Assembly (NCBI RefSeq): GCF_020177595.1
Contig: NZ_JAHTBL010000005.1
Span: 124,001-188,000 of the forward strand
Reading direction: 5' to 3'
Length of the DNA: 64,000 nucleotides
Source: Cognatishimia sp. MH4019
GTDB taxonomy: Bacteria > Pseudomonadota > Alphaproteobacteria > Rhodobacterales > Rhodobacteraceae
Part shown: piece after piece, positions 13,492 through 43,897 of the stretch
Layout of the letters: the number at the start of each line of letters is the position of its first letter
Numbering within the stretch: the first letter of the stretch is position 1
Translations under genes and position numbers: made by a program
Notes under the pieces: model-generated
The model's input: only the letters and a program-made list of their open reading frames with translations
Told to the model about the DNA's origin: nothing
Database searches by the model: none

Positions 13492-13578
13492 AGGCGGAGA
13501 TTGGGTCCTTCGGGCGCAATGGCGTTGTCGTGAGGAACGTGTGAGGTGGAGGTTGGTTCCTTTGTAATCTGTTGGGCG

Positions 13579-13617
13579 AAAACTCTTTAGGAGAGTTTTT
13601 GGGTAAGTTTGCTGAAA
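13579..13617 (+). terminator. Orphan double-hairpin terminator at the head of copy 1
   Basis: AAAACTCTT pairs with GAGAGTTTT (13579-13599, one G-T wobble), followed by TGGG and a weaker second stem with a bulged G (13605-13617). In copy 2 the equivalent structure directly follows slyX. Here no plus-strand gene ends nearby (truA stops 1.3 kb upstream), so it terminates nothing obvious. Confidence 0.55.
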
Positions 13618-13642
13618 GCTTTTTAGGGTTGGGTGATGTCGT

Positions 13643-13732
13643 GCCCCCGCCCCGGACCTGATCCGGGGCCTCTTGGGTTTGGGGTTGTGTAATAGTGGCA
13701 GCGGGGTCCCGGATCGGGTCCGGGACGGGGGC
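13643..13732. repeat. Nested palindromic intergenic repeat, copy 1
   Basis: Two 28-base arms (13643-13670 and 13705-13732) are near-complementary to each other. Each arm is itself a hairpin: GCCCCGGA/TCCGGGGC and GTCCCGGA/TCCGGGAC. The whole can fold as two small stem-loops or one large cruciform. The core resembles the CCCGGA...TCCGGG intergenic palindromes common in alphaproteobacterial genomes. The same element is in copy 2. Confidence 0.65.
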
Positions 13733-13787
13733 GCTGTGCTCACACCGTCGTTACCAAAATCACGCAATATCCCGTCACGGGCCTGTG

Positions 13788-13924
13788 ATGTGCGTTTGCG
13801 CACATACGCCAAGATCACCGTGCGCGTTTTCAGGTCCACTGTGGAATGCCATTTGTCTGTCATCGGAAGCGCAAACTTCCAAACACACACAACGCAAACA
13901 CAACACACACAAAGGACTAAACAA
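13788..13924 (+). promoter_or_regulatory. Conserved structured leader of small secreted protein gene, copy 1
   Basis: The leader opens with the hairpin ATGTGCG-TTTG-CGCACAT (13788-13805). It continues with the short palindrome TCCACTGTGGA (13835-13845) and the stem-loop GGAAG...CTTCC (13865-13880). A roughly 35-base A/C-rich stretch without G-rich pairing leads to the ribosome-binding site AAAGGA. Bases 13798-13919 are identical to the other copy. The promoter could not be placed with confidence. A structured 5' end plus an unstructured A/C tract fits a stable, efficiently translated mRNA, by inference. Confidence 0.5.
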
Positions 13925-14176
13925 ATGAAATTCGCTCTTATCTCCGCCCTCGTCGTCGCTGCCGCTCCGGCCTTCGCTGACGTCACCTCACCTGCTGAAG
14001 CCAATGCACAGCACGGGTTTGAAACCTCGTTCGTGGCCTCCAACGATCTGGGCAAAACCTCCCCCGCCGAGATCGCTGGTGAAGGCACCGTCGGCAATGA
14101 CGTGATCTCCACGCAAAACGTCGACGTGTCGGCAAAGCTGGGCGTCACATCGGCTGCCGAACTGGCCGCACGCTAA
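13925..14176 (+). CDS. Small secreted/periplasmic protein with TSPAE repeats, copy 1
   Basis: An 83-aa protein of unknown function. Residues 1-18 form a clear Sec signal peptide ending APAFA, leaving a mature chain of about 65 residues without cysteine. The mature part has three copies of a TSPAE-like motif at residues 21-25, 45-49 and 75-79 (the last is TSAAE here). AAAGGA upstream supports the ATG at 13925. It differs from the paralogue at 43580 only at Val20 (Ile) and Ala77 (Pro), with 14 further silent codon changes, so the protein is under selection. I do not recognise the family; a role outside the cytoplasm is inferred from the signal peptide. Confidence 0.8.
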   Translation: MKFALISALVVAAAPAFADVTSPAEANAQHGFETSFVASNDLGKTSPAEIAGEGTVGNDVISTQNVDVSAKLGVTSAAELAAR

Positions 14177-14200
14177 GTCGCTACACCATCCTACCGCTGA

Positions 14201-14237
14201 CGGCTCTCAAGGTTCCTCCCGCCTTGAGGGCCGTTTT
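14201..14237 (+). terminator. Rho-independent terminator after small secreted protein gene, copy 1
   Basis: A 12-bp stem (CGGCTCTCAAGG/CCTTGAGGGCCG, one T-G pair) with a nine-base loop is followed by TTTT. It is identical in copy 2, although the bases between stop codon and stem differ. It lies just beyond the stop of the convergent lectin gene but has no T-run on that strand. Confidence 0.85.
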
Positions 14238-14240
14238 GCC

Positions 14241-14591
14241 TTAGTAGAGCTGCCAGTCGTCGTCGTGGGGAAGCGTGCCGATGGCCGTCCATGTCGCGCG
14301 GATGCGGGCGATGCGGGTGTCGCCCCACGTGCGGAAGACGATCTCGAAGCCCTCGGCCGTGACCTGTTCGGCCTGAATATCGGCGCGCAGGTTGGTGTTG
14401 CGGTCCAGATCCCACAGCGAGATTGCGACCTGCACGGTAGGGACTTCGGAAAACGGCGTATCAAAAGTCACAGGCGTGCGACGTTCGCGCGGGCCGGTGC
14501 CGGTCCACATCTCGCCCCCGTTCTGATAGTCGGAAAAGAGCAGTTCTTCGCCTTGCTGCACCCCGACCGAATGTCCGCTTAACCGCATCAT
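14241..14591 (-). CDS. H-type lectin domain protein
   Basis: A 116-aa protein consisting essentially of one H-type lectin domain, the carbohydrate-binding fold first described in Helix pomatia agglutinin. Visible family segments are PVTFDTPFSEVPTVQVAISL (about 40-60) and IRATWTAIGTLPHDDDW near the C-terminus. There is no obvious signal peptide, so it may be cytoplasmic or exported by another route. AAGGGG precedes the paired ATG codons at 14591 and 14588. It lies downstream of atpC but after that operon's terminator. The ligand is unknown. Confidence 0.75.
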   Translation of the reverse strand: MMRLSGHSVGVQQGEELLFSDYQNGGEMWTGTGPRERRTPVTFDTPFSEVPTVQVAISLWDLDRNTNLRADIQAEQVTAEGFEIVFRTWGDTRIARIRATWTAIGTLPHDDDWQLY

Positions 14592-43225: not shown

Positions 43226-43235
43226 GGGTGGGGCG

Positions 43236-43278
43236 AAAACTCTTTAGAAGAGTTTTTGGGTAAGTTTGCGGAAAACTT
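43236..43278 (+). terminator. Double-hairpin terminator of slyX
   Basis: AAAACTCTT/AAGAGTTTT (43236-43256) is a perfect nine-base stem with loop TAG and a following T. After GGGT a second stem AAGTTT/AAACTT (43262-43278) precedes TT. It matches the layout at 7276-7322 and 13579-13617. Confidence 0.75.
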
Positions 43279-43299
43279 TTCAGCCTTGGGCACTGTCGT

Positions 43300-43386
43300 G
43301 CCCGCCCCGGACCTGATCCGGGGCCTCTCGGGTTGGGGTTGCGCAACAGTGGCAGCGGGGTCCCGGATCAGGTCCGGGACGGGGGG
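43300..43386. repeat. Nested palindromic intergenic repeat, copy 2
   Basis: Two arms, 43300-43325 and 43359-43386, are near-complementary. Each contains its own hairpin (GCCCCGGA/TCCGGGGC and GTCCCGGA/TCCGGGAC). Spacing and order are as in copy 1, with scattered substitutions that largely preserve the stems. Confidence 0.65.
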
Positions 43387-43442
43387 AGCCTTGCTCACAC
43401 CGCCGTTACCAAAATCACGCAATACCCCGTCACGGACCCGTG

Positions 43443-43579
43443 ATGTGCGTTCGCGCACATACGCCAAGATCACCGTGCGCGTTTTCAGGTCCACTGTGGA
43501 ATGCCATTTGTCTGTCATCGGAAGCGCAAACTTCCAAACACACACAACGCAAACACAACACACACAAAGGACTACCAAA
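43443..43579 (+). promoter_or_regulatory. Conserved structured leader of small secreted protein gene, copy 2
   Basis: The first hairpin is ATGTGCG-TTCG-CGCACAT (43443-43460), here with a UUCG tetraloop instead of UUUG. The second stem-loop GGAAG...CTTCC is at 43520-43535, followed by the A/C-rich tract and AAAGGA. Bases 43453-43574 are identical to copy 1. The promoter was not located. Confidence 0.5.
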
Positions 43580-43831
43580 ATGAAATTCGCTCTTATCTCC
43601 GCACTCGTCGTCGCTGCCGCTCCGGCTTTCGCTGACATCACCTCACCTGCTGAAGCCAATGCACAGCACGGGTTTGAGACCAGCTTCGTGGCCTCGAACG
43701 ATCTGGGCAAAACCTCCCCCGCTGAGATCGCCGGTGAAGGTACCGTCGGCAATGACGTGATCTCCACCCAAAACGTCGACGTGTCGGCAAAGCTGGGCGT
43801 CACATCGCCTGCAGAGTTGGCAGCCCGCTAA
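43580..43831 (+). CDS. Small secreted/periplasmic protein with TSPAE repeats, copy 2
   Basis: An 83-aa paralogue of the product at 13925-14176. The signal peptide (1-18) is identical. The mature chain carries three TSPAE motifs (residues 21-25, 45-49, 75-79), all intact here because residue 77 is Pro. Relative to copy 1 it has Ile20 and Pro77 as the only residue changes against 14 silent codon changes. It has its own leader and terminator, so it is transcribed independently of slyX. The family and function are unknown to me. Confidence 0.8.
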   Translation: MKFALISALVVAAAPAFADITSPAEANAQHGFETSFVASNDLGKTSPAEIAGEGTVGNDVISTQNVDVSAKLGVTSPAELAAR

Positions 43832-43860
43832 GACCTAACGCCCGCCTCTCCTGAGCGAAA

Positions 43861-43897
43861 CGGCTCTCAAGGTTCCTCCCGCCTTGAGGGCCGTTTT
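43861..43897 (+). terminator. Rho-independent terminator after small secreted protein gene, copy 2
   Basis: The 12-bp stem CGGCTCTCAAGG/CCTTGAGGGCCG with TTTT is identical to the one at 14201-14237. It stands four bases before the stop of the convergent lipoprotein gene. Confidence 0.85.

Follow-up and report, generated by a model that had tools for sequence, protein, structure and literature searches.

Among the operators that resemble the site described here, the CRP consensus reads TGTGA-N6-TCACA, and the inner half-site of the tra box, the operator of TraR, is GTGC/GCAC. Dispersed bacterial paralogues that evolve in concert are also known, the rRNA operons and the tuf genes being familiar examples. 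According to one account of TraR (PMC3907764), the tra box is an 18-bp inverted repeat whose six central bases are not contacted, and class-I tra boxes are placed at about 65 nt from the transcription start; a further account (PMC7856919) assigns the DNA contacts of the protein to Arg206 and Arg210. The locus analysed here resembles both kinds of system. It lies in a stretch of 64,000 nt of Cognatishimia sp. MH4019 (Rhodobacteraceae), which we call the window, and the reading that we favour, with a rough probability of 0.55, is that two nearly identical loci of this window (copies A and B) belong to a co-regulated family, scattered over the genome, whose genes encode small, acidic, exported proteins that each contain three TSxAE motifs.

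The first-pass annotation of the window had described two blocks, at 13571-14237 and 43226-43897, with the same parts in the same order, an observation which is real but incomplete. The blocks align colinearly from a double hairpin through to a terminator, and they have in common the double hairpin, a nested inverted repeat, a long leader, an 83-aa open reading frame and the terminator (Table 1). As had been stated, the two products differ at exactly two residues (V20I and A77P), with silent changes at 14 codons, and the 38-nt terminator is the same in both copies. The double hairpin (AAAACTCTTTAGnAGAGTTTTT) and the nested inverted repeat (CCCCGGACCTGATCCGGGG...TCCCGGATCnGGTCCGGGA, which folds at about -63 to -64 kcal/mol) are both far above the expectation from shuffles of the window. 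The terminator is confined to A and B, and two of the further copies described below (C22 and C4) have another 3' flank in common. For copy A we guessed, by eye and from the conserved ATCGG, a transcription start at 13862. Two other readings of the leader were considered and rejected. A structured RNA found no match (zero Rfam families at gathering score in the window), and the arms of the dyad within the leader hardly vary, so that they speak neither for nor against pairing in the leader RNA. A coding extension is contradicted by the upstream open frames, which vary in length between copies, the AAAGGA and the ATG being constant.

Table 1. Features of copies A and B, with coordinates in the window.
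Feature	Position	Strand	Evidence or remark
Copy A double hairpin, 5' edge of shared block	13576..13625	+	A/B alignment, shuffles
Copy A REP-like nested inverted repeat	13645..13735	.	shuffles; offset constant in 5/5 alike copies
Copy A putative operator GTGATGTGC-N6-GCACA	13785..13804	.	dyad scans
Copy A symmetric 18-mer ATGTGC-N6-GCACAT	13788-13805		within putative operator
Copy A promoter-like block (GATCACCGTGCGCGTTTTC ... CATTTG ... ATCGG)	13813..13866	+	conservation, 19 leaders
Copy A CA-rich 5' leader, mostly unpaired	13867..13924	+	
Copy A ribosome-binding site AAAGGA	13911-13916		within 5' leader
Copy A 83-aa predicted exported protein (signal peptide, three TSxAE motifs)	13925..14176	+	
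Copy A terminator hairpin with T run	14200..14237	+	
H-type lectin domain protein gene adjoining copy A	14241-14591	-	PF09458, E 1.9e-23
Copy B double hairpin	43233..43282	+	A/B alignment, shuffles
Copy B REP-like nested inverted repeat	43300..43390	.	shuffles
Copy B putative operator GTGATGTGC-N6-GCACA	43440..43459	.	dyad scans
Copy B 83-aa predicted exported protein	43580..43831	+	
Copy B terminator	43860..43897	+	same as copy A's

The window protein begins with a segment that resembles a signal peptide and ends in AFA; the part behind AFA, some 65 residues long, is acidic (pI 4.2, charge about -6). Each protein contains three TSxAE motifs, the second and third of which are preceded by LG. 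No match above the curated cut-off was obtained in Pfam, searched with 13 family members, or in NCBIfam, searched with the two window proteins. The two AlphaFold models are of low quality (mean pLDDT 54.5 and 51.3), that of the window protein being unusable. The exported product may release short repeat peptides, have a role at the surface or in a matrix, or act as a public good.

In the genome of the window (G000; 3.63 Mb, 25 contigs) ten stretches match the protein and are read as nine genes: five near-identical copies, two of which are those of the window, and four diverged relatives; the count of copies per genome, which had been recommended, gave more than a pair. The five alike copies are 96-100% identical to copy A and lie on contigs C21 (twice, these being A and B), C22, C12 and C4. 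Three diverged paralogues are found on C20 and on C12, the latter at 7.7 kb and at 126 kb, and the ninth gene follows the C12 copy in tandem and has no leader of its own, which leaves eight leader-bearing genes among the nine. This tandem gene (G000:C12:335595-335841; L007 and L029) is frame-shifted in G000 and intact in its counterpart in G001, the genome of a sister species, and the tenth stretch is its tail. It had been considered that the second copy could be an assembly artefact, or that homologues could be absent everywhere else. Neither holds: A and B lie inside a 302-kb contig, have unique flanks and are syntenic in a second assembly, and homologues exist within the genus. A family match was obtained in three of 41 genomes (the own genome and 40 relatives), all three belonging to the genus, and a pattern-based scan of GTDB contigs returned ten loci in two uncultured Rhodobacteraceae assemblies and in no other organism. 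The search of a plasmid collection gave no match to the window protein, and a limited search of one literature collection found no published description of these genes.

The history of the copies can be followed by comparing G000 with G001. Judged from the flanks outside the block, syntenic counterparts exist in G001 for 8/8 leader-bearing loci of G000: A/272k, B/302k, C22/21k, C12t/190k and C4/157k for the alike copies, and C20/613k, 7k/408k and 126k/527k for the diverged ones, the pairing of C20 resting on the 3' flank only and that of C12t on 377 nt of 5' flank together with the 3' flank. In G001 a distance of 29.6 kb separates 272k from 302k, a spacing like that of A and B. Given these syntenic counterparts, the copies had been duplicated before the two species separated. 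Within the block, the five alike G000 copies are monophyletic (95/99), and keeping the members of an orthologue pair together was rejected in all five AU tests (p 8e-63, 3e-55, 5e-6, 0.0095 and 5e-58); the five copies of G001 form no clade in the best tree, such a clade being nonetheless not rejected (p 0.44). As to synonymous divergence, the ten G000 paralogue pairs all have dS values of 0.12-0.30, the five G001 paralogue pairs computed (of ten possible) have 0.18-0.33, and four of the five orthologue pairs have 0.47-0.58; the fifth, C12t/190k, has a dS of 0.23, no more than the paralogues. Five coding columns are fixed within each species yet different between species; in a single column an orthologue pair shares a state with no other copy. 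As for the three diverged paralogues, each clusters with its orthologue.

The borders of the likeness were profiled in 60-nt windows over five of the ten G000 paralogue pairs, which show no likeness outside the stretch from about -420 to +300 or +360. Outside these borders the orthologues are mostly 70-98% alike, with exceptions in C12t (far 5' flank) and in C22 and C4 (last windows). At -120 to -61, identity is 98-100% in the five G000 paralogue pairs and 75-87% in the five orthologue pairs; the four G001 pairs that include copy 272k reach 78-98%, so that homogenisation is less complete in that species. Since the alike paralogues are closer to each other than to their syntenic orthologues, and the borders are sharp, the pattern is one of concerted evolution and not of recent duplication or faulty assembly: judged from these alignments, the leader and the coding sequence of the five alike copies are homogenised within the species by gene conversion, clearly in G000 and partially in G001. 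It is scarcely credible that no conversion took place and that each species duplicated the gene separately and recently, youth and purifying selection accounting for the likeness. The proteins are indeed under purifying selection (dN well below dS), but the likeness extends to silent sites and to the non-coding leader, and eight places syntenic in both species are not what separate duplications would produce. Also very unlikely, if somewhat less so, is the spread of the block as a mobile unit with the REP-like repeats as its ends. Such a repeat does stand at the 5' edge of the five alike G000 copies, with a constant offset in 5/5; against this, the positions are equal in the two species (8/8), a search by pattern found the repeat at just two of the five G001 copies and a fragment of it at a third, and a transposase-like frame was not seen within the blocks.

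The leaders of these genes have a dyad in common, TGTGC-N6-GCACA, which is exact in 18 of the 19 leader-bearing copies of three genomes, at 124-145 nt from the ATG (124-136 nt before the start codon in the eight G000 leaders), and which has one mismatch in the nineteenth (in G002). The two tandem second genes are without it. The arms are kept among the copies and the six-base centre is variable. In G000 the dyad occurs at 11 places (three for the reversed control), eight of them at family genes; two of the others lie in frames that we read as recR-like and permease-like, and the third lies between genes and has no GTGA extension. The longer form, GTGATGTGC-N6-GCAC, was found eight times in G000 and eight times in G001, always at family genes, with zero control sites in both. 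We consider two things taken together to be very probable, namely that the five copies undergo gene conversion and that the eight leaders have a common dyad whose longer form is present nowhere else in G000.

Over 120 genomes, the longer form was found at 35 places in 15 genomes (one for the control). Nineteen of these places, in 13 genomes, are outside the genus, and seven of them precede a small exported repeat protein: three in G053 (near-identical copies), two in G009, one in G069 and one in G099. Two further places in G009 are cut by contig ends, their leaders beginning nearly alike, and the other ten have no small exported repeat protein gene within 420 nt and are taken as chance, one of them having been tested for overlying frames. 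The G053 trio (L072, L085 and L090) encodes dispersed near-identical exported repeat proteins of 156 aa with a leader in common, and is possibly a second case of homogenised copies. In G067 (L082), a long-form dyad stands about 96 nt before a gene read as pirin-like, which is possibly another target or else chance.

From eight small exported repeat proteins behind the dyad we built a profile (A3, the LGVxPGxYS class), which matches in 32 of the 198 genomes of the bacterial family and, across the taxonomic class, in one of 240 genomes, the own genome. It also identifies one further gene outside the window family in each of G000 (L128, G000:C21:228969) and G001 (L127, G001:C2:363675); both encode an exported protein of this class with DVISTQN, as in the window family, and stand without the dyad. 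The association with the dyad was assessed on 30 loci, namely 26 of the 30 fetched A3 loci, including weak ones and some with a misplaced start, together with L032, L042, L035 and L038; L100-L103 were dropped because their genomes had supplied the operator, and L033, L034, L036, L037 and L039 were left out (L039 has a dyad with one mismatch). A dyad with at most one mismatch lies within 400 nt upstream of 15 of the 30 loci, three of these being exact, against 0.48 expected from dinucleotide shuffles and 0/29 downstream; the other half, L127 and L128 included, is without it. In 40 other genomes the unextended TGTGC-N6-GCACA does not separate carriers of the second class from non-carriers, with 49 sites in 20 genomes without the class and 55 in 19 genomes with it (G135 left out). 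The whole genome of G135 has 47 such sites, against one reversed control, and the excess is probably a dispersed repeat. Plasmid pDSHI06 of Dinoroseobacter shibae carries a relative of the class (L183:5923-6432), which has copper-resistance genes on one side, transposase genes on the other and no dyad upstream.

Homology between the two protein classes was considered and rejected. A comparison of whole-protein profiles gives 96% probability, a score which rests on the signal peptides: with the mature parts only it falls to 0.2%, within the range of the column-shuffled control. Against solved structures, the best match of the A3 profile (E 0.0017) is a designed protein. With the dyad standing at the family genes and at many genes of the second class, a single regulator seems, as far as the positions of its putative site can tell, to control a regulon made up almost solely of genes for small exported repeat proteins.

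As to which regulator reads the dyad, our best guess is a LuxR/TraR-type quorum regulator, since the layout resembles the TraR tra box; it is the most likely candidate, put forward tentatively. The window dyad ATGTGC-N6-GCACAT is likewise an 18-bp inverted repeat with a free six-base centre, and this centre would lie 65.5 nt from the transcription start if the guessed 13862 holds. An exact core (GTGC-N6-GCAC) was also found in one of five further plasmids (nine tra-region gaps scanned), on a Phyllobacterium plasmid between traA and traC (GTGCAAATCTGCAC); shuffled sequence gives 0.015 cores per 501 bp, and over the roughly 3.5 kb scanned this single match is not unlikely by chance. The gaps scanned in NGR234 contain no tra-box core. 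G000 has six matches to the autoinducer-binding domain, and the strongest of them is a LuxR beside LuxI, encoded 28 kb beyond the window on the contig that contains it. At the positions of Arg206 and Arg210 of TraR, this protein has, by eye, Arg and Glu. Its operon has no good dyad upstream, and the two sites within two mismatches at the locus are both beyond the end of luxI. As a co-occurring regulator this protein, the only LuxR tested, was rejected: it is present in 22 of the 32 carriers of the second class and in 103 of the 166 non-carriers, which amounts to no association (cross-counted by hand, both draws of 198 taken as one set).

The chief rival keeps the family, the conversion and the dyad and changes the activator to one of the CRP/FNR type, which would read TGTGC-N6-GCACA as a variant of TGTGA-N6-TCACA and make the genes answer a metabolic, not a population, signal. 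The 5-6-5 spacing equals that of CRP sites, class-I CRP sites stand at a similar distance, and the one LuxR tested does not track the genes. Nevertheless, the fifth base stays C among the sites listed, with no TGTGA form seen, and the tra box and the Phyllobacterium plasmid box have the same inner half-site, GTGC/GCAC. On balance we consider a CRP/FNR-type activator rather unlikely, and retain the LuxR/TraR type as our candidate.

In the mechanism that we propose, one signal would activate one DNA-binding protein, which would bind the dyad as a dimer about 65 nt before the transcription start and switch on all eight promoters at once. A leader that is CA-rich and mostly unpaired, with its AAAGGA site, would suit strong translation, after which the product would be exported, and gene conversion would keep five copies interchangeable, the switch included. 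If the copies are interchangeable through conversion, the benefit would be the dosage of one exported product under one signal. We regard it as probable that a dimeric activator co-induces all copies and that conversion keeps them interchangeable for dosage. The first-pass annotation had suggested dosage or differential use as the benefit, and the first of these is the likeliest, in the form of co-induced dosage, five near-identical, separately promoted copies occupying matching positions in the two species. For the five alike copies differential use is disfavoured, because their operator and promoter region is homogenised together with the coding sequence; among the diverged paralogues it is possible.

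On these readings, what began as two similar small genes becomes a defined regulon that can be tested. In the genus, a single short site coincides almost exactly with one class of exported proteins, and across the Rhodobacteraceae it stands at half of the loci tested from a larger class that has no name. Should the regulator be a LuxR protein, the genes would be direct quorum-sensing targets in the Rhodobacteraceae; the binding sites predicted in the Dinoroseobacter studies, as far as these accounts go, are those of CtrA and LexA (PMC6473078, PMC4046655). A wider proposal, which we offer as speculative and doubtful, is a quorum-controlled regulon of the Rhodobacteraceae, with genes for small exported repeat proteins as its chief direct targets, in which unrelated repeat proteins of different lineages stand behind the same tra-box-like switch, some copies being homogenised by conversion with the switch included, and in which the repeats might be released as peptides, as an AHL-triggered signal or public good. 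Additionally, the alike copies are a clean example from nature of short units at scattered sites between which conversion takes in the promoter along with the gene.

Compared with the tra box systems of Agrobacterium-type conjugative plasmids, the targets here are genes on chromosomal contigs that encode small exported proteins, and not conjugation or replication genes, and no luxI target was seen. With the LGVxPGxYS class the window family shares export, small size, repeats, a short STQ motif and, in many members, the upstream dyad, whereas the mature parts have no detectable homology. The paired GC-rich inverted repeats between genes recall REP/BIME-like repeats, which are seen here, however, as a rider of the converted block. 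Finally, like other dispersed bacterial paralogues under concerted evolution, these scattered copies are kept alike within the species by conversion; unlike in the rRNA operons and the tuf genes, the units are short (about 0.6 kb), the operator and promoter are converted too, and five partners take part at once, with three paralogues under the same switch staying out.
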